Of a stretch of DNA of 64,000 bases, positions 5,974-63,872 are shown one piece after another (the stretch's first letter is position 1; each line of letters begins with the position of its first letter). The notes beneath the pieces were generated by a model. It saw only the letters and a program-made list of their open reading frames with translations. It ran no database searches and had not been told where the DNA came from. The position numbers and the translations under genes are program-made. The DNA is from a virus. The stretch spans positions 310,001 to 374,000 of IMG/VR virus record IMGVR_UViG_3300044680_000280. The stretch is one strand, 5' to 3'.

Positions 5974-6182
5974 TCAGATCATCCGGTGAGAGGATTCGGA
6001 TCGCACATGCCATTGCCCGATTGAGAATCATCCTAGACCAGGTCGAACAGACGCTCGACGTGGACGCGCCCCCGGGGCCGGATGTCGGTCAAGCGGTCGC
6101 TCATACTGGTGTCGATCTTGCATGTTCGATTGCCCGTCTGGAAGCCTACATGCGTGCGGAAGAAGATAACGGTGGGGCGTGA
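5964..6182 (+). CDS. hypothetical helical protein (72 aa)
   Basis: Two amphipathic helices (IAHAIARLRIILDQVEQTL and GVDLACSIARLEAYMRAEED). It overlaps the HTH gene by ten bases and the next gene through TGATG, so it is operonic. No family was recognised. Confidence 0.65.
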   Translation: MHVIRSSGERIRIAHAIARLRIILDQVEQTLDVDAPPGPDVGQAVAHTGVDLACSIARLEAYMRAEEDNGGA

Positions 6183-6691
6183 TGCCCGATTGGCTCAGTC
6201 ACTTGCTCATCTTTTTCAATGAAACGGGGGTTACCGAAGGCAAGCAGATCCTCTCCCTCTCTGAGCAGTGGCAACCCTTCACGGAAGAACAGTGGGTGAG
6301 ACTGGACTACCGAGTTCGGTCGGTCTGCGTCCGGGAGGCGATGTCGTTCTTCAATATGAGGCTTTTCAAGAGGCTCGGGGTATGTAAGCAGATTATCGAT
6401 CTGTGTGACCGTGCAGGTCGTGGTGAGATAGTCGCCCTTGTTGAGTGGAGCGAAGCTCGCGCCCTGGCGTCAGGTAAGGGTCTGCCAGTCGAGATCGTGA
6501 GAGCAACGCGAGAGCCGTCGTTGGTTGGGTCCTGGGTGGTTCGTGAGTTGGCGTCGTTGGTGTCTAGGAAACGAGGGGCACTGACGTGCGTTGCTCAAGC
6601 CACGTACAAGCTCATCGAGGAAGAGATCCGAGTAACGAGAGCCGCTCGTCTAACCGTCTGGTCGCATCTGATGGACGAGGACTCGGTGTAA
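6182..6691 (+). CDS. paralogue family protein (MP[DE]WL) with WDHLM tail
   Basis: Shares MPxWLSxLL, EEQWVRLDYRVRSVC(V)REA, LCDR-x-GRGE and TRAAR with the protein at 52628-53119, so the two are clear paralogues. It ends LTVWSHLMDEDSV, a full WDHLM tail. ATG 6182 is preferred to the GTG at 6179 because the paralogue begins with the same MP-x-W. Its last codons GTG TAA are the GGTGTAA promoter box of the next gene. The function is unknown. Confidence 0.75.
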   Translation: MPDWLSHLLIFFNETGVTEGKQILSLSEQWQPFTEEQWVRLDYRVRSVCVREAMSFFNMRLFKRLGVCKQIIDLCDRAGRGEIVALVEWSEARALASGKGLPVEIVRATREPSLVGSWVVRELASLVSRKRGALTCVAQATYKLIEEEIRVTRAARLTVWSHLMDEDSV

Positions 6692-9408: not shown

Positions 9409-9657
9409 ATGGTGATTGTTCAGACCGACTACCAATACAACGCTGAGGAATGGTGGGACGCGGCTAACGCACTGGCGAACAGCATGCGCGACCCGACGTT
9501 TACGCGCGTTTTCAATCTGATCACGCTGGCCGATGAGGTCAAAGTGGAGGAGAGCGACTTCGAGTCCTTCCTGTCGGCCGCTCGCAAGCTCGAGGGGTGG
9601 AGTGATGGCCCCGCAAAGGCCCCAAATCCGATTCTGTTTTCGTACGAGGAGAACTGA
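9409..9657 (+). CDS. hypothetical acidic protein (82 aa)
   Basis: Preceded by AAAGGGAAACGACA, a leader sequence shared in form with several genes here (GGGGAACGACAATG and similar). Helical and acidic, with YNAEEWWDAANALAN. No family was recognised. Confidence 0.65.
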   Translation: MVIVQTDYQYNAEEWWDAANALANSMRDPTFTRVFNLITLADEVKVEESDFESFLSAARKLEGWSDGPAKAPNPILFSYEEN

Positions 9658-9660
9658 CCG

Positions 9661-10308
9661 ATGAGTCAATGGAGGCTGTTCGAGAGTGGGTTTAACTACG
9701 ACACGATCGAGGCGGAGAGCGTCGAGGCGGCTCTCGAGGTCGCCAAGGACAATGTCGACCGAGACAATTACGAATCGTCCGACAAGACCTTCTACGTTGA
9801 CGTGCTTGTGCAGCGGGACCCGACGTTCGCGGTGTGGGGCCAGGGGGTGAGCAGTAGCGAGCTCATCCGCAACGGGAAGGCAACGGATCGAGCTCGTGCT
9901 CAGGCGGTCGAGCGCTCTGGCCCGATCGAGGGTGATAGGTGGGCGGTCGAGGTCACCTGCTCGAAAGATAAAATCGGCACCGAGGCTATACCCGACGAAG
10001 CGACCGAGTTTTACGCCGAGCTCGAGGGGGAGGAAGAGTCGTCGGCGTTAGTGGCCGTGGAGCCAGAGGAGCCCAAGTGCCCGAACGGGAAACACACGTG
10101 GGAGGAAACGAGCCTCCGTGGTAACGCGGGAGGAGTCATCATCAAGGAAACCTGTTCGACGTGCGGCTGTGTTCGCACGACGAACACGTGGGCTCAGAAC
10201 CCATCGACTGGTCAGCAGGGGCTGAGGTCGGTCGAGTACACCGTTTCGGACGACGACGATCAAGACCAGGTGGTCGACTACCCCGACAGTGCCGAGAGAG
10301 TCTATTGA
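9661..10308 (+). CDS. hypothetical protein with C-terminal zinc motif
   Basis: The N-terminal ~60 residues (FESGFNYDTIEAESVEAALE) resemble a small alpha/beta domain. The middle is acidic. Residues ~140-180 carry C-x4-H-x-W ... C-x2-C-x-C, a zinc-binding pattern common in phage hypothetical proteins. The C-terminus is very acidic (SDDDDQDQ). Confidence 0.6.
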   Translation: MSQWRLFESGFNYDTIEAESVEAALEVAKDNVDRDNYESSDKTFYVDVLVQRDPTFAVWGQGVSSSELIRNGKATDRARAQAVERSGPIEGDRWAVEVTCSKDKIGTEAIPDEATEFYAELEGEEESSALVAVEPEEPKCPNGKHTWEETSLRGNAGGVIIKETCSTCGCVRTTNTWAQNPSTGQQGLRSVEYTVSDDDDQDQVVDYPDSAERVY

Positions 10309-10634
10309 GATCTGTTCAGCCGAAATGCTACCACGCATGCGGTCGCAAAGCCGCGGTTGGGCGACTTTTCTGCTCTACCAAATGTGCCGCAGAATGGGCT
10401 GAGGAACTCGCTCGCGGCAACGAAGACGAATGGTGTGTGCCTTGCCAGGCGTGGCAATCCGCTTCCGTGACGACCACAAACAAGCTCGGATGCGGGCATA
10501 TGCGGGTTGGTCTCCTCGAAGGCATGAAACATGCCGATGCGTCGAAAAAGTACGGGGACGCTATTGGGGGTCAGATAGCGCACTGGGGAGAGGAAAGATT
10601 CACCTCGGAAGAAACACGAAAGGACGAGCTATGA
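10305..10634 (+). CDS. zinc-finger protein (109 aa), TTG start
   Basis: CYHACGRKAAVGRLFCSTKC forms a C-x3-C...C-x3-C finger resembling FCS/MYM-type fingers. A second C-x2-C pair follows (CVPC). No ATG or GTG is available before the finger. The TTG at 10305 overlaps the previous stop (TTGA), suggesting coupled initiation on a rare start codon. Confidence 0.55.
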   Translation: MRSVQPKCYHACGRKAAVGRLFCSTKCAAEWAEELARGNEDEWCVPCQAWQSASVTTTNKLGCGHMRVGLLEGMKHADASKKYGDAIGGQIAHWGEERFTSEETRKDEL

Positions 10635-13608: not shown

Positions 13609-13635
13609 TACACCGGGTCCCCGCCCTCGGTGTAA
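13609..13635. promoter_or_regulatory. divergent GGTGTA promoter pair
   Basis: TACACC 13609-13614 serves the minus-strand operon and GGTGTAA 13629-13635 serves the gene at 13646; the boxes are only 14 bp apart. Confidence 0.7.
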
Positions 13636-13645
13636 AGATAGTCTC

Positions 13646-14569
13646 ATGCCGTTGGACGATGATGAGGTGCGGGTCCTAAATCTACGAATCCTGAATCTTG
13701 AGAACCATCTCGCGACGGTCAACGCGGTTCTTTCTCGTATGGCATTGCTTGAGACACCCTCGGTTGAGCCCCCAACCCCACCAGAGACCCCACCAGAGGT
13801 TGAATTCGATGAAACGGACCTCGCACGTATTTGGGTGGAGTGGGGTGAAGTTGAGGGCCGCATTGTTAACGACGGGCACCACCCCATTACTGAGCACTAT
13901 CCCGACAGTGCGTCCGGGTTCGAGTTGTACAGGGAAGAGTGGCTCGAACTACGAATGGGGTCTGAGGAATCGACATGGAACTCAGCTCAACAGAGCGCGG
14001 CTAGAGTTGTCAGGGCTATGCCGAATCCTTATGTGTTACAAGAGAGGGCTCAGGATGCATGGCATTCCATGTCCAGGTACATACAAGAAACGGGGCATCA
14101 TCCGTTTCTGTACGAGGGGAGAGAGTACGCTGATTCGGCGGCGGGGTTCGAGTTGTTCATTGACTATTGGGTAGAGAGATACGTGGGCTTGTGGGGTCGT
14201 GGGTCCTCAAGGTATGAGCTCCAAACCCGCATTGTGAATCGTATTGTCACCGCAACGCCGAACCCCTATTTGCTAAGGGCGCAGGGCCCGGGTCTTCGGG
14301 ATGAATTTCCAATACAGGCCATCGCATTGACCTCAGACTTCGAGGACGTGCCTCCAAACGTCGTCAAGGCCGAGTCAATACTATTGACTCCTGAGGAAGT
14401 GGCTAGACTCACAGGTTACCTCAAACCCTACGAAATGTCGGTCGGTCAGTTGGCCACCAACCTTTTGCGAGAATGGCTCACCACCCATCGAGAGTATGAA
14501 ATTGCAGCGGTGGATCAATCACCCAAGACCATTTGGGACCACATTATGGACGTCCCCACTGAGGGGTGA
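13646..14569 (+). CDS. repeat-domain protein A with WDHLM tail (307 aa)
   Basis: ATG 13646 lies 10 bases after the GGTGTA box; the frame upstream crosses the divergent promoter and is rejected. An N-terminal coiled coil (VLNLRILNLENHLATVN) is followed by two copies of a ~75-residue domain with the pattern HP...Y-x-DS-x-x-GFEL(Y/F)-x-x-x-W ... V-x-A-x-PNPY. The C-terminus is SPKTIWDHIMDVPTEG. Three further copies are in the protein at 15258-16523. No known domain was recognised; the four-gene cluster 13646-16523 may act together. Confidence 0.75.
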   Translation: MPLDDDEVRVLNLRILNLENHLATVNAVLSRMALLETPSVEPPTPPETPPEVEFDETDLARIWVEWGEVEGRIVNDGHHPITEHYPDSASGFELYREEWLELRMGSEESTWNSAQQSAARVVRAMPNPYVLQERAQDAWHSMSRYIQETGHHPFLYEGREYADSAAGFELFIDYWVERYVGLWGRGSSRYELQTRIVNRIVTATPNPYLLRAQGPGLRDEFPIQAIALTSDFEDVPPNVVKAESILLTPEEVARLTGYLKPYEMSVGQLATNLLREWLTTHREYEIAAVDQSPKTIWDHIMDVPTEG

Positions 14570-14572
14570 CTG
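14552..14572 (+). repeat. 21-bp dispersed palindromic repeat, copy 2
   Basis: GTCCCCACTGAGGGGTGACTG, reverse orientation to copy 1 with two changes. It spans the stop codon of the repeat-domain gene. Confidence 0.6.
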
Positions 14573-14574
14573 GG

Positions 14575-14898
14575 ATGGCAAAAGCACGAGGCATGATTGT
14601 CTACCGGGGATCGAGCACCAACCTGCTCGATACGGACAGATTCTACGCAAATTCAGACCCCACAATGGGGTACCGAATTGTGAACCCAGGTTACACACGG
14701 AACGGGGAGACGATAGAGGTCGAAGCTGAACAGGACGGGGAACACGGGAATCGCCCTTCAGGTGAGACCCTCACCTTTCTCTTCATTTCTACCCATTCCG
14801 TTGTGAACATCGTCGGTGGTGCCGATCTGATTCCTATTCCCATCGAACTTAACGGACCTCGGAAGACAATATGGGAACATTTGGTGGGTGAAGGGTGA
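14575..14898 (+). CDS. WDHLM-tail protein (107 aa)
   Basis: A beta-rich protein (GMIVYRGSSTNLLDTDRFY, then TLTFLFISTHSVVNIVG) ending GPRKTIWEHLVGEG. It follows repeat-domain protein A directly. The function is unknown apart from the shared tail. Confidence 0.7.
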   Translation: MAKARGMIVYRGSSTNLLDTDRFYANSDPTMGYRIVNPGYTRNGETIEVEAEQDGEHGNRPSGETLTFLFISTHSVVNIVGGADLIPIPIELNGPRKTIWEHLVGEG

Positions 14899-14919
14899 AA
14901 AGTGGTGTAAAATCGGGGA

Positions 14920-15255
14920 ATGCCTCCCTCTGAGAACCACTCAGAATGTGATGCTCGCATCGAGGCACTCCACTCAGAATGTGATGCTCGCATCGTGACA
15001 CTCCAGTTGGAAGTGCGGCGGCTCGATACACGGCTTATTTGGCTCAATACACGGCTCGTAACTCTAGAGGCAACGGTTGAGGAACGGAATGATGAACCGG
15101 AGACGACCTTAGCTTCCGAGGACGGATCACCCCCGTTCCGTGTGCCCAGTCTCTGGTCCTCGGATATCGTGGTATCCCATATATTCGAAGAACATAAGGA
15201 CGACGGTTCACCTAGGGTCTCAGCTTGGGATCACATAATGAGTGAGGACGCTTGA
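14920..15255 (+). CDS. coiled-coil WDHLM-tail protein (111 aa)
   Basis: The N-terminus has an 11-residue tandem repeat (HSECDARIEAL, HSECDARIVTL) leading into a coiled coil (VRRLDTRLIWLNTRLVTLEA). A Ser/Pro-rich linker ends in SPRVSAWDHIMSEDA. GGTGTAA at 14904-14910 sets the start. The coiled coil suggests oligomerisation that would display several tails. Confidence 0.75.
   Translation: MPPSENHSECDARIEALHSECDARIVTLQLEVRRLDTRLIWLNTRLVTLEATVEERNDEPETTLASEDGSPPFRVPSLWSSDIVVSHIFEEHKDDGSPRVSAWDHIMSEDA
14937..14995 (+). repeat. 26-bp tandem repeat, 33-bp period
   Basis: The 26-bp units at 14937-14962 and 14970-14995 are identical. The 33-bp period keeps the reading frame and encodes the 11-residue coiled-coil repeat. 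Confidence 0.85.
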
Positions 15256-15257
15256 CC

Positions 15258-16523
15258 ATGCCCGACGAAGTCACCACCCGAATTGAAGCGCTCGATAGAC
15301 GGATCTCCGACATCGAATCCCTTTACGGTAACCTCAGGGTGGTCAACTTTGAGAGCCAGGTTCGAGCTGCGTGGGCTCCCATTGAGGAGCAGATCCAATC
15401 GAGCGGACGTCACCCTCTCGAGTTCAACGGTTCTACCTACCCCGACACAAGTAGTGGATTTGAGAGGTTCCGTATCGACTGGATCTACGGCATCGTTGCT
15501 GTTGCTGAGACATCCCCACTGTACAACATCAGACTTCAAATTGCGTCTCTAGTGGTGATGTCAGTTCCCAACCCCTACATGTCACTAATCAATGTAGGAA
15601 ATCCAGACATTAATATGGGCTCCGGGGAGTGGGTACAGGTAGGAACCACTCGGTTTGCTGCTGCATACGAGAGTGCGATTCGAAGCTTATGGGGCAGGGC
15701 GATACCGCAAGAGTACGCGAGAGATTGGGTGGGATTTGAGTCTTTTCGTCAGGATTGGGTGACTCTACAGTTGCAGGATTACCCAACGACGAGTCCCGGA
15801 TACGCCGCTAGGGAGCCTATTATTAGGCGAGTGGTGGACGAGACGCCGAATCCGTATCCACGTATGGACAACCCTCAACGGGACATTCCCACTGCGACGA
15901 CTCTTGTCGATCTCGTACAGGCGGGCTCGTCGGCTGATGTAAGGGTCATCGCATTCATAGGTCGGGTTCGAGCTGCATGGGGGGAATCCGCTGCCTTCAT
16001 TGCGAGTAACGGTAGTCACCCCTTGCGTCCCATCTTTGGCATCTATGGTGAATCCGAAGAAGAGTACAATCGTTTCGTCGAGGATTGGATCAGCACTTTT
16101 ATCAGCGAAGATGTGACTGAGGATGAGCCGGACGACACCTATAAAACGATACTCGCGAATGGCGTCGTGTCTGAGACCCTTAACCCCTTTCGAACTCGTC
16201 GGCTTCACGCCTCGGTAGCCGGTGGTTCGATCGCGCCTACCGGCGGAACAGTTACGAATCAAATCGCCGACGATACGGTCGGATACGACATCGCTCTTCA
16301 GGAGTTCTTCATCCGGTTGCCGAATGTCACGCATTCCCAGATGCTTGAGTTTCAGAACGAAGTCTCTCACGTCGTACCCACCCGGGCGGGGGACGCTGTC
16401 GTTGCCTATATGAGGCGCACGGTAGGGGGTTTTTTCGGGACCGTAAAGCGAGATCCCTCGCCCGTTGAAAAAATTGAACCCAAGGTCTCCATTTGGGACC
16501 ATTTAATGGAAGGAGACCGGTAA
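15258..16523 (+). CDS. repeat-domain protein B with WDHLM tail (421 aa)
   Basis: A short coiled coil (TRIEALDRRISDIESL) is followed by three copies of the domain seen in protein A: HPLEFNGSTYPDTSSGFERF...PNPYM; GFESFRQDW...TPNPYP; HPLRPIFGIYGESEEEYNRF...TLNPF. The end EPKVSIWDHLMEGDR is a full tail. ATG 15258 overlaps the preceding stop region. The middle repeat is the most divergent and lacks the HP motif. Confidence 0.75.
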   Translation: MPDEVTTRIEALDRRISDIESLYGNLRVVNFESQVRAAWAPIEEQIQSSGRHPLEFNGSTYPDTSSGFERFRIDWIYGIVAVAETSPLYNIRLQIASLVVMSVPNPYMSLINVGNPDINMGSGEWVQVGTTRFAAAYESAIRSLWGRAIPQEYARDWVGFESFRQDWVTLQLQDYPTTSPGYAAREPIIRRVVDETPNPYPRMDNPQRDIPTATTLVDLVQAGSSADVRVIAFIGRVRAAWGESAAFIASNGSHPLRPIFGIYGESEEEYNRFVEDWISTFISEDVTEDEPDDTYKTILANGVVSETLNPFRTRRLHASVAGGSIAPTGGTVTNQIADDTVGYDIALQEFFIRLPNVTHSQMLEFQNEVSHVVPTRAGDAVVAYMRRTVGGFFGTVKRDPSPVEKIEPKVSIWDHLMEGDR

Positions 16524-16539
16524 TGAAAGATATGAGGCG

Positions 16540-17028
16540 TCACACATGCCAAAGGAGAGAACGTGGCGCCACGGTGCAGATTCCCTTGGAGGCGGTCACT
16601 AGAGCCGCCTCCTCCCGTGGGTCTAAAGAGACCGTCACCGCGTACTTGGGGTTGCCCGAGATGATCTTAATAGATGGCACATAACGCCGCAGACTCGTAA
16701 TAATGTCCACTTCTCTGCCCGCCGCTGACTCCCGTAGAAGCTCGGGAAGCAGCGTCAAGGTTCTCTCGAGCAGGATTCCTCCCAGTGCCTTTATGGATTG
16801 TTCGAGTGTCACTACCGATGGCAGACGTTCCAGGCTCGAGGTCCGCTGCCAAGCCACGTCGTCTAGTACCTTTGTGGCCGCCAAGACGATCTGGTAGAGA
16901 TCGAGCAGGTCCCTCGCCCTAATGCAGGGCTCATGATTGCATTCCTCAAAAGAACATTTGTGACCCATACCCTCATGGTGGTCTTTACGGTCCTGAGCAC
17001 TTGCTACTGCGTTCACAAAACTACCCAT
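16540..17028 (-). CDS. hypothetical helical protein with Cys cluster (162 aa)
   Basis: CSFEECNHEPC near residue 25 is a possible metal site; the rest is helical (LLDLYQIVLAATKVLDDVAW). ATG 17028 overlaps the end of the upstream WDHLM-tail gene and follows AGGAAGGGCAAGACA. Confidence 0.65.
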   Translation of the reverse strand: MGSFVNAVASAQDRKDHHEGMGHKCSFEECNHEPCIRARDLLDLYQIVLAATKVLDDVAWQRTSSLERLPSVVTLEQSIKALGGILLERTLTLLPELLRESAAGREVDIITSLRRYVPSIKIISGNPKYAVTVSLDPREEAALVTASKGICTVAPRSLLWHV

Positions 17029-17269
17029 TGTCTTGCCCTTCCTCTTCCAGCATGTGTTCAAAGACTGTTTTGGAATTAACCGGTTTTACGGGAATTTCTT
17101 GTGGTTGAGGAACGACTACGGGCTGCTCTGGCACCACCGCTCGTCGGGCTCTCCATCGGTTCCAAAGGGAACCAAAGAGGTTGTTGCGCACCGCGGTGGA
17201 TAGAGCGGCAAAGAACATGCTCACCGCGGTGTATGCCCCAACCTCCATAATGGTGTCGCGCGGTGTCAT
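17021..17269 (-). CDS. membrane-anchored WDHLM-tail protein (82 aa)
   Basis: One membrane segment (VGAYTAVSMFFAALSTAV, ~9-26), a basic stretch, a Pro/Val-rich linker, then NSKTVFEHMLEEEGQDNG, a tail with Phe replacing Trp. If the N-terminus is outside, the tail faces the cytoplasm, which would tether tail-binding partners to the membrane. It starts four bases after the upstream stop. Confidence 0.7.
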   Translation of the reverse strand: MTPRDTIMEVGAYTAVSMFFAALSTAVRNNLFGSLWNRWRARRAVVPEQPVVVPQPQEIPVKPVNSKTVFEHMLEEEGQDNG

Positions 17270-19554: not shown

Positions 19555-19891
19555 TCACGACTCGTCCTCAACGAGGTGGTCCCAAACGGTTCGGCGCGGT
19601 GCTGGAGTCCCCTTTGGGCGGGGATCAAAGGGGATCTTGACGTCCTGTCCAGGTGACAACGGGGGGAGTTTCCCTTCCGCCCTCAACCGTTCCCCTAGTT
19701 CTGAGAAGAGGAGTCTCCCTTGTGCGGTCCTACGATAACCGTCATCTTGGTCAATTGAATCCCAAGGTAAGTCGGCGTAGTACTTTCCGAAGCATCTGTT
19801 GCAGGCCCAATTGACAGAACCCTTCCATAGAAGAATCCCCGCAGCACGGGCACACCGTCAACGGTCCGGTCGCTTCGTAGGTGGGCTTCAT
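19555..19891 (-). pseudogene. frameshifted paralogue of the 21062-21379 WDHLM protein
   Basis: Reading from ATG 19891 gives MKPTYEATGPLTVCPCCG, matching MILQPAYEPEGPLTVCPCCG of the neighbour. The frame then breaks: the neighbour has TGTGGGATC where this copy has TGCGGGGATT. Removing one G restores ...KYYADLPWD...LGERLRAEGKLPPLSPGQDV and the tail PRRTVWDHLVEDES down to TGA 19555. It is either a pseudogene, a sequencing error in the G-run or a programmed frameshift. A GGTGTA box is still present upstream (TACACC 19902-19907). Confidence 0.75.
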
Positions 19892-20838: not shown

Positions 20839-21078
20839 ATGGAACAGGTGAAGTACCCCAAGTTCGAGTTTTCGGACCTACTCTACCGCAAAACGGTTGT
20901 GTCCGGGCACACGTTTGTGGCAAAGGAGGACGAAAACACTAGTAACCTCGTCGTCTGCTCCGTGTGCGGACTCGAAGGATGGGGCGTTCGCGAGGCGGGC
21001 GTCGACTCGATCAAGAGCTACTCGCCAAACAAGCCGTGCACATCGAAGGTTAGGACGGTAGTCAATCCTCATTCGTGA
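20839..21078 (+). CDS. zinc-knuckle protein (79 aa)
   Basis: CSVCGLEGWG gives one Cys pair and a later single Cys a possible third ligand. The ATG is 21 bases after the GGTGTA box, so the mRNA has a short leader here. The end overlaps the convergent WDHLM gene by 17 bases. Confidence 0.65.
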   Translation: MEQVKYPKFEFSDLLYRKTVVSGHTFVAKEDENTSNLVVCSVCGLEGWGVREAGVDSIKSYSPNKPCTSKVRTVVNPHS

Positions 21079-21379
21079 GGTGATCCCAGACAGTAAGGCG
21101 AGCCCTCGGGGTGAACGCGACTTGGATGTCTTGATCTGGAGGTAACAAGGGCAGTTTCCCTTCTACCCGCAGGCGCTCCCCGGTCTCTGCGAATAGTTTG
21201 CGCCCTTCTTTGACATGAGAGTTGAGGGGGTCGTGGCCGAGAATTGTATGTGGTAAGTACTGACAATACTTACTGAAACAATCATCGCAGGCGAAAAGTT
21301 GCTTCTTATCCACCGAGATCCCACAGCACGGGCACACCGTCAACGGCCCTTCGGGTTCATAGGCGGGTTGCAATATCAT
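21062..21379 (-). CDS. zinc-finger WDHLM-tail protein (105 aa)
   Basis: CPCCG (18-22) and CDDC form a four-Cys site. The second half is helical with GERLRVEGKLPLLPPDQDI, then RARLTVWDHLTNED. Its frameshifted paralogue is at 19555-19891. The GGTGTAAAGAACCCGCATG arrangement fixes the start. Confidence 0.8.
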   Translation of the reverse strand: MILQPAYEPEGPLTVCPCCGISVDKKQLFACDDCFSKYCQYLPHTILGHDPLNSHVKEGRKLFAETGERLRVEGKLPLLPPDQDIQVAFTPRARLTVWDHLTNED

Positions 21380-24595: not shown

Positions 24596-24871
24596 TTACA
24601 CCGAGGGATCCATGAGATGGTCCCAAACCGTCTTCACTGGAATCTCTTCTTTCGGGGCCGCGGGCGGGTCATTTCCGTAAATGATTGACTCGCTGAGCAC
24701 GGGATGCCCCTCGCAGCATCTTTCATCCCACACGAAATGCGGATTTGCTGCGTGACGGCGAGTTGCTTTGGCGGCTCGTTCTGCGTCGGAAGGGGAATCA
24801 TGGTCGCTGCATCGAAGGCACCAACACTTTCCGCACCCCGCACACACCACTTCTATGCAATGGTTACCCAC
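24596..24871 (-). CDS. zinc WDHLM-tail protein (91 aa), GTG start
   Basis: The N-terminus is dense in cysteines (CIEVVCAGCGKCWCLRC), a likely zinc module, with CC-x2-H further on. It ends VKTVWDHLMDPSV; the final GTG TAA is the next gene's promoter box. The GTG start overlaps the 25-aa membrane gene by eight bases. Confidence 0.75.
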   Translation of the reverse strand: MGNHCIEVVCAGCGKCWCLRCSDHDSPSDAERAAKATRRHAANPHFVWDERCCEGHPVLSESIIYGNDPPAAPKEEIPVKTVWDHLMDPSV

Positions 24872-25399: not shown

Positions 25400-25611
25400 A
25401 AAAGACGATCAATGCGAGCGCCAAGCCGTCTAAAAGCTCTACCCGAGCCAAAGAGAAGCGTAAAATCAAAGAGATAATTGATTGCGAGGGCTTCCACTAC
25501 GGCCTCGTCTCCTACAGCGACTTCGAAGACGTCAAGGATGAGCGTTTCCACGAGCTCCTCAAAGCGTATCGTTTGGCCGCGGGGGCAATCGAAGAGTACC
25601 TCAATCTTTGA
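25396..25611 (+). CDS. hypothetical protein with basic N-terminus (71 aa)
   Basis: A lysine/serine-rich start (MKKTINASAKPSKSSTRAK) precedes an acidic helical domain. Coupled by ATGA to the preceding gene; its end overlaps the convergent WDHLM gene. Confidence 0.65.
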   Translation: MKKTINASAKPSKSSTRAKEKRKIKEIIDCEGFHYGLVSYSDFEDVKDERFHELLKAYRLAAGAIEEYLNL

Positions 25612-25891
25612 GCAGATGGTCCCATATGGTCATGGTCGGCTTCTCGCGAACCTCCTCTTTGAGGGTTTTTCTGACCACACGGATGATCTTTGCTCGGTTT
25701 ATGCTTACACGGCCGTGATGGGAATCTTCCCAGGCCTTCAATAATTCACGAGCACGGGCTCGGGTCATGACTTCTGGCCTTTGGTGCGTGTCATACACGC
25801 CCTGCACGTTTAACCCGACCCTCGGGTTAAACGTGACGTACCATTTGTGCCTCTGCGTCCTAACCAGGTACCCTAGGACCTCCTTATTCAT
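25601..25891 (-). CDS. WYV/RARAREL-domain WDHLM-tail protein (96 aa)
   Basis: The first 55 residues match the domain in the 17271-17711 protein (GYLVRTQRHKWYV, VMTRARARELLKAW). The C-terminus KPTMTIWDHLLKD is a full tail. The start overlaps the stop of the 24-aa tail peptide upstream. Confidence 0.75.
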   Translation of the reverse strand: MNKEVLGYLVRTQRHKWYVTFNPRVGLNVQGVYDTHQRPEVMTRARARELLKAWEDSHHGRVSINRAKIIRVVRKTLKEEVREKPTMTIWDHLLKD

Positions 25892-25958
25892 CGTGTGCGA
25901 TCCTCTCCCACACGCTCAACTTGGCGCTGAGCCATCGGGCGATGAAATTGGGAATCAT
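25884..25958 (-). CDS. 24-aa micropeptide consisting of helix plus WDHLM-like tail
   Basis: MIPNFIARWLSAKLSVWERI then AHDE: an amphipathic helix running directly into a tail variant (KLSVWERIAHDE). A GGTGTA box (reverse of TACACC 26017-26022) lies 58 bases upstream; frames extending toward it lack a good start and would read through the 21-bp repeat. It is a minimal tail carrier coupled to a full tail protein. Confidence 0.5.
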   Translation of the reverse strand: MIPNFIARWLSAKLSVWERIAHDE

Positions 25959-25967
25959 GACGTTGGG

Positions 25968-25988
25968 GTCCCCATTGAGGGGTGATTG
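25968..25988 (-). repeat. 21-bp dispersed palindromic repeat, copy 4
   Basis: Identical on the minus strand to copies 3 and 5; here it lies between a GGTGTA box and the 24-aa peptide. Confidence 0.75.
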
Positions 25989-26053
25989 GGAAACCCTTAG
26001 GGTTTCAAAGACCACATACACCGACGCCAAAGGGGAACGACAATGAGAAAGGC

Positions 26054-26081
26054 TTGACACCGCCCGGGGACTCGTTAAACT
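26054..26081 (+). promoter_or_regulatory. sigma70-like promoter
   Basis: TTGACA - 16 bp - TAAACT, the closest match in the window to the bacterial housekeeping consensus. Confidence 0.65.
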
Positions 26082-26102
26082 CCGCTCGAAAGACGAGGCC
26101 CC

Positions 26103-26183
26103 ATGAAGTTCGTTTTTGCCGCCGTGTTTTGCGCCATTTCCGTCACCGGGATTGCCGCCGTTTGCGGTTTCTTCTCTCCCTGA
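26103..26183 (+). CDS. tiny membrane or secreted peptide (26 aa)
   Basis: MKFVFAAVFCAISVTGIAAV then CGFFSP. Almost the whole peptide is hydrophobic and contains a lipobox-like IAAVC. Driven by the sigma70-like promoter 21 bases upstream. Confidence 0.55.
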   Translation: MKFVFAAVFCAISVTGIAAVCGFFSP

Positions 26184-26190
26184 ACTTCCC

Positions 26191-26394
26191 ATGAAGACCA
26201 AACTGACATCTCTCGACGTTGCCCGCCGTATCGCTAACGGTAAGTGCCCGCTCGATATTTTGGATCACGTTCTCGTGGGAGAACTGACCAGGAGAGCCGT
26301 CGAGGACGGGTTCATCCGTCATAACTACGGTTGCAACGACGACTGGGGCGGGTACTCGGTGACCGACAAGGGGCGCAAGGCACTGGAAGGCTAA
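26191..26394 (+). CDS. small winged-helix-like protein (67 aa)
   Basis: Residues ~20-65 (DILDHVLVGELTRRAVEDGF ... GGYSVTDKGRKAL) have the spacing of a winged helix with the common GYSVTDKGRKAL ending. Seven bases after the 26-aa peptide, so co-transcribed. Confidence 0.55.
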   Translation: MKTKLTSLDVARRIANGKCPLDILDHVLVGELTRRAVEDGFIRHNYGCNDDWGGYSVTDKGRKALEG

Positions 26395-38468: not shown

Positions 38469-39239
38469 TCAGAATTGCAGTTTCGGACTGTCGCCCGGGT
38501 CGTCGCCCGCTATCGGCTCATCGTTCAATATGCCTCTGGCGATGCATATATCCCAGAAGGCATACCAAACAGTTCGAGTCTCCGCGCGGACTGCATTCAA
38601 GGCGCGGAGAACAATGTTTTTGTCGTCCTCGTTTTCTGCCTTCTCGTAGATGTCTCGTAGATGTTGGATACTGGTATGGAGGACACCCAATCCTGACACC
38701 CAATCCACGTCCTGTTTGATATTTGAGTCGTCGGGTATCAACTTCGTCAGGGCCCAAAGGACACGGTAGATGTCCCCCGTTGAGAGGACGAATCGGTCAG
38801 GATCAGAAGAGTTCCACCGTTTCTCGAACTCGGTTTTCCATTCAGGAGGGGGGTAGAGAGGTGCTTCTGGCGCCCCTCGGAGAAGGAACTTCTTGAGGCT
38901 CGGGAACTCTTGAGCGAGCTTGCATACGCTTGCCCACTGTCGGCTCGTCGGAGCCCTCAGAACGCCATCGAGCGCCTCATTCAAGTGCTCAACCGGGATT
39001 CCGTGCTCAGTGGCGAAGTGAGCACACTGTCGGTCATTTGGATCACAATCCCAACGACGGCCTCGGATAATACGCTTGAGCTCAGTGGCAAGCGAGACGT
39101 TCGTGTAGGCGGCGATGTCGGTCGGAAGCGGGGGCTCGACGTAGACGTACGGTCTCTCTTCTTCCTCGAGAATGTGTTCCCACACCGACTTTTTCGGCTC
39201 CCGCATGGGAGCCTTTGCACGGCGCAAGCTGATTGCCAT
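38469..39239 (-). CDS. 256-aa protein with N-terminal WDHLM motif
   Basis: EPKKSVWEHILEEEE lies at residues ~14-28, not at the C-terminus; this is the only N-terminal example. The rest is helical (VEHLNEALDGVLRAPTSRQW, VLWALTKLIPDDSN). GGTGTACGTATAGGTGCATG fixes the start, so the motif position is not an artefact. No family was recognised. Confidence 0.75.
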   Translation of the reverse strand: MAISLRRAKAPMREPKKSVWEHILEEEERPYVYVEPPLPTDIAAYTNVSLATELKRIIRGRRWDCDPNDRQCAHFATEHGIPVEHLNEALDGVLRAPTSRQWASVCKLAQEFPSLKKFLLRGAPEAPLYPPPEWKTEFEKRWNSSDPDRFVLSTGDIYRVLWALTKLIPDDSNIKQDVDWVSGLGVLHTSIQHLRDIYEKAENEDDKNIVLRALNAVRAETRTVWYAFWDICIARGILNDEPIAGDDPGDSPKLQF

Positions 39240-39794: not shown

Positions 39795-40346
39795 TTACAT
39801 CAAATCGGCGGGGTCGCCCGGCTCGGCGTCCGCCGGACCATCGAACTCAACCGAACCCTTGACGAGGTCCTTTTTGAACTGTCGCTTGAGGAACTTCTCG
39901 AGCGCGACCAGGAACTCGGGCGAGTTGGCGACATCCGAGACGTCCGCCGTCGCTGTAAATAGGACGTTCATCTTGTGGTAAAAAGGCTGCTTGTTCATGG
40001 TGTCAGTACGGCGTGGCGAGTGTGGGGGTTCAAGTGCTTCGTCCATGAGGTGGCTCCAAATGGTGCGACGCGGTCCGTTTGGAGCCACCTTGGGCTCCTC
40101 CTTCAGCTCTTCGACCAAAGACTGACGCTCATCCCGCTCTCGAATGATTCGTCGTAAGACGTCGACGGCGCCCCCATCCGGCCCATGTTCACCGACGTGT
40201 TGGACGAGTATTTGTAGCAGCTCCCCGTACGTGCCTGGAACCGCCATTGCTTCCCCATCCTGAAGCTGAGACAGGAGATCGGAAACGGCATCGAGCTCCC
40301 CTGGGAGCAGGTCACCGAGCAAGTCTCGTTGGAGGGTAAAAGGCAT
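39795..40346 (-). CDS. protein with internal WDHLM motif (183 aa), possible gene fusion
   Basis: Residues ~1-90 are a helical domain with an acidic linker, ending GPRRTIWSHLMDEA at ~92-105, which looks like a normal protein end. A linker (LEPPHSPRRTD) and a second domain starting MNKQPFYHKMNVLFTATADV follow without a stop. This suggests a fusion after loss of the stop, or an internal start at that Met. Promoter GGTGTAGGTAAATC upstream. Confidence 0.7.
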   Translation of the reverse strand: MPFTLQRDLLGDLLPGELDAVSDLLSQLQDGEAMAVPGTYGELLQILVQHVGEHGPDGGAVDVLRRIIRERDERQSLVEELKEEPKVAPNGPRRTIWSHLMDEALEPPHSPRRTDTMNKQPFYHKMNVLFTATADVSDVANSPEFLVALEKFLKRQFKKDLVKGSVEFDGPADAEPGDPADLM

Positions 40347-42695: not shown

Positions 42696-43046
42696 TCACT
42701 CGTCTTCCACGAGGCGTTGCCATAAGGTCGTTCGTGGCTCGGAAGGGGGCTCCTCAGGGCACGGTTCTTTCGTGAGGGTTAGGAGGTACTTCCAGACAGG
42801 ACAGTCGTTGTCGTGTCGCCTCTCGTTGGGCATGATGCTTTCAGAGTCGAATCCGCAGAACAGACATTCCCCTGCCTGTTCTGCGTACTCAACGGCATCC
42901 TGACCGATTTCGGCTCGGGCGATGAGCTCCTCAAGAACGCTTTCAAATTCATCCCACACCTTCTTGGCGTATTCGGGCGAACTGAGCGCCTGGGTCCTCC
43001 TGGCTTTTTTCAGGAGCGCAAGGGCCTCTTCCCCGGAACAGGGCAT
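42696..43046 (-). CDS. zinc WDHLM-tail protein (116 aa)
   Basis: Helical N-terminal part (YAKKVWDEFESVLEELIARA), then C-x2-C...H-x4-C, and the tail EPRTTLWQRLVEDE (H replaced by R). TGATG overlap with the upstream gene decides ATG 43046 over longer frames. Confidence 0.75.
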   Translation of the reverse strand: MPCSGEEALALLKKARRTQALSSPEYAKKVWDEFESVLEELIARAEIGQDAVEYAEQAGECLFCGFDSESIMPNERRHDNDCPVWKYLLTLTKEPCPEEPPSEPRTTLWQRLVEDE

Positions 43047-49726: not shown

Positions 49727-49788
49727 GTTTGAAGTGTAAGGTCGATGCTTACACGAGCACTTCCCCGCCACACCCCGCGCAACGTTTG

Positions 49789-50094
49789 TCAGGCATCCGG
49801 ATTAGATACCTCAGACTTGAGTTTCGTCAAGAGTCGCTCGATTCCGAGGGCGATGTTGTCGTAAATGGGGCGCCTCATCGCTGGGTGCGGGGCGGTCCGA
49901 CCGTTTTTCCAACGTTCGAAACTCGACACGCTCAAACCGAACCGTACTCTGAGGACCTTCTCCTCGTCAAATACCCTCAGTTCTACCATCCGGTTGATAA
50001 GTTCTCGAAAAGTATCAGAGCTGTGCGTGGGGGCCGCCTTCAGATCCTCCATGAGTTTCGTGAGTTCTGCGATACGGTTGGACACGGTAAACAT
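49789..50094 (-). CDS. helix-turn-helix protein (101 aa)
   Basis: EEKVLRVRFGLSVSSFERWK is the helix-turn-helix; NGRTAPHPAMRRPI matches the signature of the proteins at 18987-19280 and 5713-5973. ATG 50094 follows GGTGTAGTAGAATG. Divergent from pyrF, which it may regulate. Confidence 0.75.
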   Translation of the reverse strand: MFTVSNRIAELTKLMEDLKAAPTHSSDTFRELINRMVELRVFDEEKVLRVRFGLSVSSFERWKNGRTAPHPAMRRPIYDNIALGIERLLTKLKSEVSNPDA

Positions 50095-50099
50095 TCTAC

Positions 50100-50141
50100 T
50101 ACACCAAGATTCTCGATGAGTCAAGACCTCAGCCGGTGTAA
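50100..50141. promoter_or_regulatory. divergent promoters of HTH gene and pyrF
   Basis: TACACC 50100-50105 and GGTGTAA 50135-50141. Confidence 0.7.
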
Positions 50142-50151
50142 CCTGGGAACT

Positions 50152-50886
50152 ATGGGCAACCCGCAAGACCGCATCATTTTCGCTTTGGACCTTCCCACCT
50201 ACAAGGAAGCCGCCGGTTACGTTTCCGCTCTGCGGGAACACGTCGGCTGCTTCAAGGTGGGGCTCGAGCTTTTTATGGTTGATGGCCCTTTAATGGTTCA
50301 CCATATTCAACACGTACACAAAAGGTCGGTCATGCTCGACCTGAAGTTTCACGATATCCCTGAAACCGTTGCGCGAGCCCTCGTCCAGGCGGGGGATATG
50401 GGCGTGCGGTTCGCCACGATTCACGTGCAGCAAAGAGCAACGATGAAGAAGGCTGTCACGGTGGCAAAGCAGTACGGCATCCAACTCCTCGCCGTGACAG
50501 TTCTGACGTCGATGACGGACGATGACCTTTTCGACCTGGATATGTCGCCGCCGTTCCTTGGTTTTTTCCCCGGTGGAGTATCGAACCGTGTCGAACGTCT
50601 GGCAAAGCTTGCCTGGTCGGAGGGTGTCACGGGCTTCGTTTGCTCTCCCATGGAGGTGAAGCGGCTCCGTAACAGTTTGCCCAATGCTGTCCTCGTGACC
50701 CCAGGAGTGCGTCCCGCGGGTAGTGATGTCGGAGACCAAAAACGAATCGGGACGCCGTCTCAAGCTATTTCTGACGGAGCAAACTACATCGTCGTAGGTC
50801 GTCCGATTCGAGATGCCGCCGATCCTGTCGCCGCCGCGGCTCTGATCGCAAAAGAGATCGACTTCGACTTGGTGGACTCCCCTTGA
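50152..50886 (+). CDS. pyrF: orotidine 5'-phosphate decarboxylase
   Basis: Converts OMP to UMP plus CO2, the last step of de novo UMP synthesis. Visible motifs: FALD at 10-13, KVGLELF from Lys36, the catalytic DLKFHDIP (Asp63, Lys65, Asp68), VTPGVRP and the phosphate-binding VVGRPI. The 244-residue length is normal. ATG 50152 lies 11 bases after the GGTGTA box; a frame from 49729 is an open upstream extension and is rejected. With the pyrE gene at 60552-61163 the window encodes orotate to UMP completely. Confidence 0.95.
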   Translation: MGNPQDRIIFALDLPTYKEAAGYVSALREHVGCFKVGLELFMVDGPLMVHHIQHVHKRSVMLDLKFHDIPETVARALVQAGDMGVRFATIHVQQRATMKKAVTVAKQYGIQLLAVTVLTSMTDDDLFDLDMSPPFLGFFPGGVSNRVERLAKLAWSEGVTGFVCSPMEVKRLRNSLPNAVLVTPGVRPAGSDVGDQKRIGTPSQAISDGANYIVVGRPIRDAADPVAAAALIAKEIDFDLVDSP

Positions 50887-52627: not shown

Positions 52628-53119
52628 ATGCCGGAGTGGCTTTCTAGCCTGCTCAGATTATTCACCGATAATGGGGTCAGGAACGGGATCGTCTCGGATC
52701 TAGCCAGTCGGTGGGGCGTTCTGTCTGACGAACAGTGGGTGAGACTGGACTACCGAGTCCGGTCGGTTTGCATCCGTGAAGCGGTGAGTCACACGAACGG
52801 TATTACGATTCTCGCTGTTTGTGAGACCGCGGCAACTCTATGTGACCGTAGAGGTCGAGGTGAGCCCGTCACTGATGCCGAATGGTTGGACGCCCGCCGC
52901 AAGGCGTCGGCGGTGACAGGGAGTCCGGCGGTGGTGGCGTTGGCGTCGACGTTGGCAGCATCGAATTCGATGCCATGTGCATGGTTGGCGGCGAGTTCGG
53001 CATCGTCGTTGACCCGCATTGCCCAAGCCACCTACGACCTCATCGACCAAGAAATCGATTTGACGCGAGCCGCCAGACCCAAAGCCATGACGATCTGGGA
53101 GCACATAATGGAGAATTGA
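52628..53119 (+). CDS. paralogue family protein (MP[DE]WL) with WDHLM tail (163 aa)
   Basis: Paralogue of 6182-6691: MPEWLSSLL, DEQWVRLDYRVRSVCIREA, LCDRRGRGEP, LTRAAR. It ends KAMTIWEHIMEN. GGTGTACGCTATTGGGTATG fixes the start. The Ala/Ser-rich region at ~100-130 is longer than in the paralogue. Confidence 0.75.
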   Translation: MPEWLSSLLRLFTDNGVRNGIVSDLASRWGVLSDEQWVRLDYRVRSVCIREAVSHTNGITILAVCETAATLCDRRGRGEPVTDAEWLDARRKASAVTGSPAVVALASTLAASNSMPCAWLAASSASSLTRIAQATYDLIDQEIDLTRAARPKAMTIWEHIMEN

Positions 53120-53366: not shown

Positions 53367-53451
53367 TTTTCTGTTCTCCCTCTCACTCATATAGAACGGA
53401 CCGTTCCGGAGGAACTTGAGAAAAATTCGGCGTTGCGGTGTAAGGGACCGC

Positions 53452-54024
53452 ATGCTCTCGGATCAAACGAAGGAAGCCATTCTCACCGAGTATCTCAAAA
53501 ATGGTGGGCGTCACCAAAAGCCGCCTGAGACCTCATTTGGACCGAAAACTGGGTTCCGTTGTACGTGCGGCGGCCCCCTTTACCAAAGGTACGACCTCTT
53601 CGAGTCGCGACTTCCCCCGCGCAAAGGTCCTCGTCGTAGCAAAAACCGTCGGATCGCCAAAAAGCAACTCAAGAGGTGGCTCGAGGAAGAATGCATGCTT
53701 TATCGGTTCGAGTTCGCGTTGAACCTTCTACGAGGCCCCCGCGGGTATATCTGCGGCTCTTGTTACAGAAACGTTGGATTTTACGAGGCCATCGGCCGCA
53801 ACACCTTCATTGTTGAGCAACTCCCGGACGGCGCTCTGCCGATTTACGACCGAGATCCTGATGTTACGGCGTTCGATCCCGCCTCAGGACAAGCTCTTAC
53901 GGTAGAGAACGTCCTCCCCGGCTCCCAAACCGTAGAGGTCCTCGATCGTTTGGATCCGATACCCCTCCCCAAAGAGGAAGGTACGGATCTCCAGGTTCCC
54001 AACCTTGGCGTCGACGAGGACTGA
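53452..54024 (+). CDS. zinc protein (190 aa) overlapping a convergent gene
   Basis: CTCG...C...C-x2-C (GYICGSCYRNVG) form a zinc site with a basic middle (RKGPRRSKNRRIAKKQLKRW). GGTGTAAGGGACCGCATG fixes the start. The last 47 codons are antisense to the GNAT gene, so the natural end may be earlier in an undamaged relative. Confidence 0.65.
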   Translation: MLSDQTKEAILTEYLKNGGRHQKPPETSFGPKTGFRCTCGGPLYQRYDLFESRLPPRKGPRRSKNRRIAKKQLKRWLEEECMLYRFEFALNLLRGPRGYICGSCYRNVGFYEAIGRNTFIVEQLPDGALPIYDRDPDVTAFDPASGQALTVENVLPGSQTVEVLDRLDPIPLPKEEGTDLQVPNLGVDED

Positions 54025-54870: not shown

Positions 54871-55179
54871 ATGGCCCACGTGTGGACTACAACGCTGCCC
54901 GACAAGACTACAGTGTGGGTGTATTCGCGCTTCTACCATCAGGGTGTCCACTACAACGGGACCTGCTGTCAATACTGCGGAGCCCAAAAGTGCACCGTTC
55001 CGGGGAGCCGTGCGGGTCTTGTTCGCACCCTCTACATCACATTCAAATACGGCAAACCGTATCGTTTTAGTCCCAAAGCCCCGATCTGCATTCGAGAGGA
55101 CGAGACCTTTGCCGTTGAGGTACCCAAACCTCTCCCGAACAGGATGACGGTCTATGACCATCTGCTGAGCCCGAGCTAA
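54871..55179 (+). CDS. zinc WDHLM-tail protein (102 aa)
   Basis: CCQYC...C near residue 32 is a zinc-type cluster; basic middle; end NRMTVYDHLLSPS is a tail with Tyr for Trp. Leaderless start behind GGTGTAACTGTACAGAATG. Confidence 0.75.
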   Translation: MAHVWTTTLPDKTTVWVYSRFYHQGVHYNGTCCQYCGAQKCTVPGSRAGLVRTLYITFKYGKPYRFSPKAPICIREDETFAVEVPKPLPNRMTVYDHLLSPS

Positions 55180-60301: not shown

Positions 60302-60552
60302 TGGACGTCGTCCTCGACTCCGCCGCCGCCCATGAGCTGGGCCTCCAGGCAATCGTACACGCTCTCGGTGATGAGCATGCACCGCATCATTGCTCGATTG
60401 GACAGGGCCTGGGAGTGATACTTGCACGACGCGATCAGTCCTCCGGTAGAGGAGTAGAATACCGTCGGCTTGTTTACGCATACGAAGGGGTTATCGTTGT
60501 CAAGATTCGCCAGGAATAGTGAGGCGAACCCCATGCAGCAGATCCTAGCCAT
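60298..60552 (-). CDS. hypothetical Cys-containing protein (84 aa)
   Basis: Possible weak signal-like start (MARICCMGFASLFLA), several scattered Cys. TAATG overlap with the pyrE stop. No family was recognised. Confidence 0.65.
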   Translation of the reverse strand: MARICCMGFASLFLANLDNDNPFVCVNKPTVFYSSTGGLIASCKYHSQALSNRAMMRCMLITESVYDCLEAQLMGGGGVEDDVQ

Positions 60553-61163
60553 TAGCGAGAAAGGTCCGTGATGTGAAACAGACTTAGAACTCGGTAAATT
60601 CGGCCCCTCTCGGTGTCCTTCAATGGGACATCGAGGTTTGGGTATCTGCGCTCGACAACGGTCACGATTCCGACGACCAAGTATTGGTTGGAGTCCTCGA
60701 GTGCTCGGATGGCTTTAATGGAGGACCCGCCCGTTGTGACAACGTCCTCAACCAAAACGACTCTGTTTAGCCTACCCTCGACCGGAGCGGGACCCTCGAT
60801 GAGATTCTTCGTTCCGTGGTCTTTTGCTTCCTTGCGAACGTGAAGGACGTCCAGGGGGAGGTCCTCGAGTGCGGCTTGGAAGCCCACGAGGCTTGCCAGG
60901 TGGCACCCGCCGAGGGCAACGCCCGCCACGGCATCGAATTGACTAACACCGACGAGCTGAAGCACGTGTTGGTGTAGGACGTAGGCGAGGGTCCGTTGAA
61001 TCGAATGGTGCATCGACGACTTTTTGACGTCGATGTAAACGTCCGACTTCTCTCCAGAGGCGAGGGTGAAGGGCTCCCCCTCCGGTGCGATTCGAACGGA
61101 TCGCTCTTTCATGACATCTCTGATTCGATTCAAATGAGGACGGAGATTCTCTCGGATGCTCAT
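60552..61163 (-). CDS. pyrE: orotate phosphoribosyltransferase
   Basis: Makes OMP from orotate and PRPP. Visible: FTLASGEKSDVYIDVKK (32-48, orotate side), HVRKEAKDHGTKNLIEG (108-124, flexible-loop residues) and the PRPP motif VLVEDVVTTGGSS (136-148). The length of 203 is normal. The ATG overlaps the upstream 157-aa gene. Together with pyrF it completes UMP synthesis from orotate; no earlier pyrimidine genes are present, so orotate must come from the host. Confidence 0.95.
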   Translation of the reverse strand: MSIRENLRPHLNRIRDVMKERSVRIAPEGEPFTLASGEKSDVYIDVKKSSMHHSIQRTLAYVLHQHVLQLVGVSQFDAVAGVALGGCHLASLVGFQAALEDLPLDVLHVRKEAKDHGTKNLIEGPAPVEGRLNRVVLVEDVVTTGGSSIKAIRALEDSNQYLVVGIVTVVERRYPNLDVPLKDTERGRIYRVLSLFHITDLSR

Positions 61164-63177: not shown

Positions 63178-63471
63178 TCAGTCGTCTCCCATCATCTGCT
63201 CAAAAATACTCTTCCGGGGCGGCGGTTCAGGAGGCGCGGGCGGGGGAGACGACGGTGTTCTCGGACGGTTCCCATGCCACGCCTCGATGTTCTCCAGGCT
63301 CCGCCTAGTCGTCGACGGACACGGTAGCTTCTCAGGATCGGTCTCGCCCGTAAAGTTGATTCCCCACGCCTCCCGCAACTCCTGCCATTCTGGGTGGCTA
63401 TCACAGTACTCACATTTTGCGGGGGCATGAAGTACGGATGAGTCGCAGTGGGGGAATTGCTCGATGGGCAT
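63178..63471 (-). CDS. zinc WDHLM-tail protein (97 aa)
   Basis: C...C-x2-C-x-H near the N-terminus (CDSSVLHAPAKCEYCDSH), a proline-rich linker, then PPRKSIFEQMMGDD, a tail with Phe and Gln substitutions. ATG 63471 follows GGTGTATGGAAGGGAATG. Confidence 0.7.
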   Translation of the reverse strand: MPIEQFPHCDSSVLHAPAKCEYCDSHPEWQELREAWGINFTGETDPEKLPCPSTTRRSLENIEAWHGNRPRTPSSPPPAPPEPPPRKSIFEQMMGDD

Positions 63472-63521
63472 TCCCTTCCATACACCACGCACCGTGCCGA
63501 CGGGCGGTGAGTCCGATGTTC

Positions 63522-63872
63522 CTACCCCAGGTCCCCGTCCCGATAGGGCCCGTGATCGTCGCCCAGGCTCGGGCGCGCAAGCACGGACATCGCTCCATGC
63601 TTGGGACCCAAGCATCGGCAGGAATGGCCTTCCTTAGATGGCGCCTTCTCCAGCTCGGGAAGGAGCTTCTCAATGGCGGCCTGGACCTTCTTGAAGTCGC
63701 CTACATAGAGCACGTTCGCGCGCCCTCCCGAGTAGTGCCAGTCCACGGCCTGACCGCTCTCCTTGGCGACGGCCTTGACCCACTTCTCGACCCGGTGCGA
63801 ACAGCCGTCGAGAATGATGGCCGAGTGGCCTTTCTTGAACACCTTGTCGTTGCAGGGCGGCGGCGAGGGCAT
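63522..63872 (-). CDS. hypothetical protein (116 aa)
   Basis: CSHRVEKWVKAVAKESGQAV then DWHYSGGRANVLYVGDFKKV suggests an alpha/beta domain, followed by a loop with C-x-C. ATG 63872 follows GGTGTATAGATATGGTATG. No family was recognised. Confidence 0.7.
   Translation of the reverse strand: MPSPPPCNDKVFKKGHSAIILDGCSHRVEKWVKAVAKESGQAVDWHYSGGRANVLYVGDFKKVQAAIEKLLPELEKAPSKEGHSCRCLGPKHGAMSVLARPSLGDDHGPYRDGDLG

Follow-up and report, generated by a model that had tools for sequence, protein, structure and literature searches.

When tens of unrelated proteins have a peptide in common, it nearly always serves as an address or as a degron. The cargo-loading peptide of encapsulins is short and C-terminal, follows a flexible linker on unrelated cargos and docks inside an HK97-fold shell, and the capsid-targeting sequence of phage T4 is N-terminal, is cut off by the head protease and has few clients. 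The T4 sequence, a short peptide, guides proteins into the prohead (Mullaney and Black, 1996, cited in PMC10052503), encapsulins have dedicated cargo loading (PMC8346489), and phage SPN3US has more than 50 head gene products (PMC10052503). Here we analysed a 64,000-base stretch of phage DNA (the window), bases 310001-374000 of a 406,734-base IMG/VR virus record (G000), in which the products of a cluster of four genes end in similar short tails. The same tail was found on unrelated proteins over 100 kb of the genome, and we propose that the four cluster proteins are clients of a phage-wide system of C-terminal docking tags.

The record encodes a portal protein, a baseplate wedge, a head-maturation protease, GroEL, a NAD-dependent ligase and helicases, which identifies G000 as a jumbo myophage. 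Portal relatives were found at 47 IMG/VR loci, and the INPHARED phage collection yielded no close DNA relative. The nearest named relatives by portal identity are LR745208 (an uncultured huge phage, 51%), Tunturiibacter phage Tunturi_5 (37%) and Bacillus phage G (26%). Of the relatives in culture Tunturi_5 is the closest, and its host is an Acidobacteriota strain. Tunturi_5 and LR745208 were examined close to whole genome for a C-terminal tag, whereas phage G (about 48%) and the relatives G001, G002, G003, G007, G010 and G011 were sampled in part. All gene calls are simple calls made in this analysis.

A C-terminal tail on unrelated accessory proteins

About 26-28 G000 proteins end in a tail with the consensus [ST][VI][WFY][DE]H[LI][LM]x[DE][DE]; here and in the relatives, the number of tagged genes varies with the choice of pattern, and a few short open reading frames (ORFs) among those counted are doubtful. 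The tagged genes lie on both strands and all but one fall at 280-384 kb of the record (Fisher p = 7e-6 for 280-385 kb versus the remainder, called genes). Matches to [WFY][DEN]H[LIMV] in the window were C-terminal in 12 cases and internal in 2; one internal match is a copy of the tag at an N terminus, and one C-terminal match, RWEHLRRK at 11249, probably arose by chance. A de novo search for C-terminal motifs over the whole of G000 gave a best score of 35.5 (13 C-terminal and 0 internal occurrences) compared with 21.3 for the best of 20 shuffles. The second-strongest tagged cluster, at 292.2-295.7 kb of the record, has the tails KKSVWEHLLEED, KKSVWEHMLEDEG, KKSLWEHLSEDDTDAV, RKTVFDHLLGESE and SKSVWEHLLEDG. 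The tail was absent from the G000 portal and major capsid proteins and likewise from the polymerase, clamp-loader, UvsX and helicase relatives that were checked.

The proteins that carry the tail have little else in common, with 181 tagged proteins from G000 and its relatives falling into 154 unrelated families. All 24 G000 tags analysed are encoded by distinct DNA and use synonymous codons freely, so that selection acts on the peptide. In five of six genomes the linker ahead of the tag is rich in proline (11-19%, versus 5-7% in the corresponding region of proteins without a tag), the exception being G006 with 5%. Transmembrane content and net charge did not differ significantly between clients and untagged proteins. 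Family searches recovered RNase HII, a D12 DNA-adenine methylase and a DUF3268/zinc ribbon protein among the tagged proteins of G001 and a DUF1643 protein in G000, the remaining matches being single or weak, so that no common function of the tagged proteins emerged.

We then compared the tail between phages, where the number of tagged accessory proteins ranges from about ten to eighty-five. Patterns enriched in the last 20 residues relative to internal windows of the same proteins were scored against 20 within-protein shuffles, and a de novo tail exceeded the best shuffle in G000, G002, G003, G005, G006 and G007. The tails of G001 and G011 were recognized by inspection and seeded patterns only; in G001 the tag did not rank first among the de novo patterns, and in G011 the top score was not above the shuffles. 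The architecture is the same throughout and the wording differs: TLWDHL in G006, [FYW]D[RHK]L[LM][DE][DE]D(LF) in G003, [ST]R[FY][DE]R[DE][DE]V[LI] in G005 (about 85 genes, many in tandem runs; PTRFDRDEPL type), TAWxRLMxDD in G001 and [ST]xLDR[IV]L in G011. Only three tags occur among the 311 core genes that were called in further stretches of G005 and G006. In many tagged proteins of G006 (L133-L134) a second Trp in a [DE]xxW-like context precedes LWDHL by 15-20 residues, perhaps forming a two-part tag.

No C-terminal tag on unrelated proteins was found in the nearly whole genomes of Tunturi_5 and LR745208; the C-terminal motif matches in LR745208 were rejected on inspection. The motif in the sampled part of phage G was also set aside, as it belongs mostly to an array of paralogues and not to unrelated bodies: L148:1-9300 holds about 11 paralogous genes of about 190 residues ending in YWKE(N/D)D(R/K)YL.KI(L/I)KG. 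A search of the open-access literature returned no report of a shared C-terminal tail in jumbo phages.

The clearest separation of tag from body comes from a family of ~165 residues, fam1, which was searched without its last 20 residues and found at E 1e-50 or better in six tagged phages. Its tails are VKTVFDHLLKDDEDT in G000, LTAYDHLLGDTLGEDE in G001, KTAFDHLLEGDDDEDTP in G003, VSRFTREADDIVGDD in G005, ANLYDHLLEDE in G006 and KTTLDRLMDTSPFDDEDD in G011, the last residues in these six phages, listed in another order, being KTVFDHLLKDDEDT, LTAYDHLLGD, KTAFDHLLEGDD, NLYDHLLEDE, TTLDRLMDTSPFDD and SRFTREADD. The tails of more distant members are PNLYDHLMGDE (G007), ANLFDHLLDDED (G010), SSTLFRLLKDPE (G004/G019) and EQIDRILEDEGDAEEDDD (G002), with the last residues NLYDHLMGDE, NLFDHLLDDED, STLFRLLKDPE and EQIDRILEDEG, and the most distant one, in G009, has only a weak WWDD tail. 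A second family, fam2 (about 250-520 residues), behaves in the same way, its tail following each genome's own wording. As the orthologues of both families appear in the flavour of their own genome, the wording belongs to the genome and not to the protein; some other tagged clients have untagged homologues elsewhere. Fam1 was absent from the whole records of LR745208, phage G and Tunturi_5, and single-protein scans of IMG/VR returned only the same or near-identical contigs and one homologue. A fold search with fam1 gave no match at E <= 0.001; its N-terminal 50 residues alone resemble a generic Tudor/SH3-like barrel. Altogether, the tail is a tag carried by unrelated bodies, selected as a peptide, worded in a genome-specific manner and kept on orthologues.

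The four-gene cluster and the other tagged genes of the window

The original prediction described four consecutive genes in one direction, for proteins of 307, 107, 111 and 421 residues, and these indeed form a tight cluster on the + strand: gene 1 at 13646..14569 (tail KTIWDHIMDVPTEG), gene 2 at 14575..14898 (RKTIWEHLVGEG), gene 3 at 14920..15255 (RVSAWDHIMSEDA) and gene 4 at 15258..16523 (KVSIWDHLMEGDR). All four were said to end in WDHLM. The common tail is present on each, with ends TIWDHIMDVPTEG, TIWEHLVGEG, SAWDHIMSEDA and SIWDHLMEGDR in gene order, but the literal WDHLM occurs in gene 4 only. In gene 3, whose product was proposed to be a coiled coil, the supposedly exact 11-residue tandem duplication was overstated, as the 11-mers agree at 9 of 11 positions; a duplication is nevertheless present, as a 26-nucleotide exact DNA repeat with a period of 33 nucleotides that encodes HSECDARI twice.

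The ~75-residue repeat proposed for genes 1 and 4 proved genuine. Each of its five units was matched by a hidden Markov model (HMM) of the other four at E 8.6e-9 to 3.4e-20, compared with a best E of 0.6 among 1977 shuffled proteins. Two units lie in gene 1 (+), at 13829..14035 (E 9.1e-30) and 14051..14272 (E 8.3e-36), and three in gene 4 (+), at 15360..15581 (E 3.6e-34), 15696..15860 (shortened, E 3.5e-23) and 15966..16193 (E 1.8e-32). AlphaFold2 models the first unit of gene 4 as three helices and a short hairpin with a predicted local distance difference test score (pLDDT) of 94.7. This model had no fold match in the PDB or BFVD (best E about 2), and no Pfam or PHROG entry matched across the repeats. 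Among the 35 records searched the repeat was seen in G000 alone, and IMG/VR held no relatives of gene 4. The cluster is thus not conserved in the relatives, which have the tail system without the repeat proteins.

The gaps within the cluster are at most 22 nucleotides, and a single promoter-like element, CGGTGTAAAGATAGTCTC (13628..13645, +), stands directly before gene 1; the four genes are therefore likely to form one transcription unit. With the genes this close, a common tail on all four and a genuine repeat in two, a common partner of the four products is plausible. A dedicated assembly of these four proteins, as originally suggested, is not supported, since the tail is not specific to them: it is found on about 22-24 other G000 proteins, on both strands and over 100 kb. 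The lack of conservation of the cluster in relatives, named in the prediction as a refuting outcome, also counts against it.

The same element, CGGTGTA(A)..GATA, precedes many accessory genes (in the window, for example, at 13628, 6684 and 54853), with the ATG 17-18 nucleotides after the start of the element (18 at gene 1), a spacing that suggests leaderless transcripts. About 139 of the 180 instances in G000 fall in the accessory region (240-406 kb). Expected counts were calculated from base composition and scaled: the 166 kb of the accessory region hold about 139 elements where about 23 are expected, whereas the 220 kb core holds about 32 where about 30 are expected by chance. The element is also commoner in G001, G003, G005, G006 and G011 than in Tunturi_5. 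In G000 and G006 no convincing k-mer was seen that would set the regions upstream of tagged genes apart, and the k-mers enriched in G005 look like the tag codons of the preceding gene.

Outside the cluster, the tail pattern marks three further genes on the + strand of the window: 6182..6691 (tail RLTVWSHLMDEDSV), whose body is paralogous to that of 52628..53119 (AMTIWEHIMEN), and 54871..55179 (RMTVYDHLLSPS). Those on the - strand are 17021..17269 (SKTVFEHMLEEEGQDNG), 19555..19857 (RRTVWDHLVEDES, an ORF with an uncertain start codon), 21062..21379 (RLTVWDHLTNED), 24596..24871 (VKTVWDHLMDPSV), 25601..25891 (TMTIWDHLLKD), 25884..26192 (KLSVWERIAHDE), 42696..43046 (RTTLWQRLVEDE) and 63178..63615 (RKSIFEQMMGDD after a Pro-rich linker). 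Other genes recognized in the window encode an OMP decarboxylase (PyrF; 49729-50886, +, Pfam E 1.1e-45), a PyrE-like protein identified from its sequence only (60552-61163, -) and an AAA ATPase (55948-57309, +) related to phrog_7485 (E 2e-16) with a PF00004 match.

Some accessory ORFs contain pieces (about 30-135 residues) of their own phage's major capsid protein. In the window, the ORF at 53395-54021 (+) has a segment at about 53782-53874 in which a 31-residue stretch is 81% identical to capsid residues 41-71. Similar ORFs occur in G003 (L125:9696-10403, L126:73-627 and L127:8746-9018), G005 (L083:2960-3856 and L089:10361-10936), G011 (L110:13344, L107:16316 and L106:19515) and Tunturi_5 (ORF172), and at least three of the carriers are tagged. 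The pieces could possibly act as decoys for a capsid-sensing host defence, or they could serve incorporation into the capsid.

Docking, destination and competing explanations

The general form of the tag is [ST]-x-[W/F/Y/L]-[D/E]-[H/R]-[L/I]-[L/M] with acidic residues behind it and, as a rule, a Pro-rich linker in front, and it is very probably a modular C-terminal docking or targeting tag. The Ser/Thr in an N-cap position, an acidic residue three positions on, hydrophobic residues at i, i+3 and i+4 and the acidic end are the features of a short capped amphipathic helix, which the tag probably forms. Such a helix may dock in a hydrophobic groove of one common receptor and would in this way bring unrelated accessory proteins to one place. 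The weakest step is where that place might be. We tentatively suggest, as the likeliest destination though at somewhat less than even odds, the interior of the growing head, with the tag as a cargo-loading peptide, so that accessory effectors would be packaged and then ejected with the DNA. Of the destinations considered, loading into the head fits the distribution of the tag best, as the portal, capsid, polymerase, UvsX, clamp loader and helicases checked, which would have no need of it, are untagged and accessory proteins are tagged. Precedents are the T4 peptide and the large set of head gene products of SPN3US mentioned above. We consider a docking tag combined with cargo loading into the prohead the best explanation overall, with a probability of roughly 45%. 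About even odds can be given to the wider view that the jumbo phages of this clade address proteins by a general system: a genome-private C-terminal docking helix can be fused to any newly acquired gene, tens of unrelated effectors are thereby brought to a single receptor encoded by the phage, and tag and receptor co-evolve as a private code of each phage.

Several observations weigh against head loading or against the tag as described. No receptor was identified, and the capsid protein is unlikely to be the direct one because in G003, G005 and G006 it is 90-92% identical to that of G000 while the tags differ strongly. Candidate receptors are 34 G000 proteins that have relatives in G005 and G006 and none in Tunturi_5, in LR745208 or in as much of phage G as was sampled. 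Several tagged genes stand behind the accessory-region element, which in the 20-240 kb core with its virion genes is about as common as expected by chance, so that early expression fits at least as well as late loading of heads. The tailed RNase HII of G001 would be an odd head cargo. Three G000 proteins carry the tag N-terminally or internally, among them a 245-residue protein with MREPKKSVWEHILEEEE at its N terminus (38469..39206, -) and a 183-residue protein with an internal RRTIWSHLMDEALE (39795..40346, -). Finally, the de novo test was negative in the 120 kb sampled of G010, even though fam1 is tagged there.

These points leave some room for an alternative, unlikely but the strongest of those considered, in which the tag docks early host-takeover or anti-defence proteins on a phage-encoded hub in the infected cell and not in the virion. 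The tagged genes reside in a fast-turnover accessory region with a distinct promoter-like element, client bodies are seldom common to several phages, and fast-evolving members of the 34 clade-specific proteins, such as those encoded at 251195-252322 and 194917-196209 of the phage record, would be candidates for the hub. On the other hand, no hub was identified, and one would not readily expect as many as about 85 different small proteins to gather on a single one. Binding of the tag to a host protein, with flavours that differ with the hosts, appears less likely still: amphipathic helices are common host-binding motifs and flavour is a property of the genome and not of the client, but the need of so many clients for one host partner would stay unexplained.

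We regard a sliding-clamp binding motif of the PIP/SLF type as improbable. The i, i+3, i+4 spacing of hydrophobic residues resembles a PIP box, G003 has SLFDLMMEEG, and in G001 the adjacent genes for RNase HII and the D12 DNA-adenine methylase (L070:8737-9432 and 9451-10362) end in TSLFDLAMSGELDD or nearly so, a variant that is also similar to a clamp-binding motif. However, the common residues include no Q at position -3, and those relatives that were found of the DNA polymerase, the clamp loader, UvsX and DnaB have no tag at the C terminus. The absence of the tag from polymerase, clamp loader and packaging proteins argues against a clamp motif and equally against an import signal for a replication compartment. 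Homologues of the G001 RNase HII and methylase in other phages are without the tail. A degron that makes early proteins short-lived is more doubtful again; tags of the ssrA type likewise sit at the C terminus and work on proteins of unrelated kinds, but most tags studied here end in acidic residues, which speaks against a ClpXP-type degron as ssrA-DD variants are stabilized against ClpXP, and a change of wording from phage to phage would not be expected. Least credible is the reading in which a single C-terminal cassette was spread by common descent or gene conversion, or in which the likeness reflects a DNA-level signal such as a Shine-Dalgarno sequence for the next gene: acidic codons (GAG GAG) can serve as a ribosome site of the downstream gene and some clients form small paralogue groups, but homology was rejected because the bodies are unrelated, the distinct tag DNA and free codon use exclude both gene conversion and a DNA, RNA or ribosome-site signal, and downstream of many tagged genes no gene was called nearby.

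For most of the accessory genes in huge phages no function has been assigned, and the tag marks up to about a sixth of the genes of one phage. It would group these genes at a glance as a single functional class, probably of effectors that go to one place, and would make directly testable which proteins a jumbo phage injects. If loading into the head is correct, the tag would show how large phage particles choose their protein cargo. The private wording of each phage would also illustrate clearly how a receptor and its tens of unrelated clients can change in step.

Comparison with known systems

Judged by portal and major capsid protein, LR745208, Tunturi_5 and Bacillus phage G stand closest among the named relatives, but neither the tag nor fam1 was found in them within the scope given above. 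In phiKZ and SPN3US a large bolus of head proteins is packaged with the genome, to which the proposed cargo would be similar. In SPN3US, however, eight substrates have N-terminal propeptides that are cut after AXE, and no common C-terminal tail is mentioned in the sections of the source that deal with them (PMC10052503). Like the encapsulin peptide, the phage tag is C-terminal, follows a linker (here Pro-rich) and is found on unrelated proteins; in contrast, the encapsulin peptide has a different sequence, serves one or few cargos and belongs to a bacterial compartment and not to a phage, and the phage capsid protein is too conserved to follow the flavours of the tag. The likeness to the T4 capsid-targeting sequence, as far as it is covered by the source cited, is that of a short peptide loading unrelated proteins into heads. 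Packaging is what we propose for the clade of G000, whose tag, in contrast to that of T4, is C-terminal in nearly all clients, is carried by tens of them and is worded differently from genome to genome.

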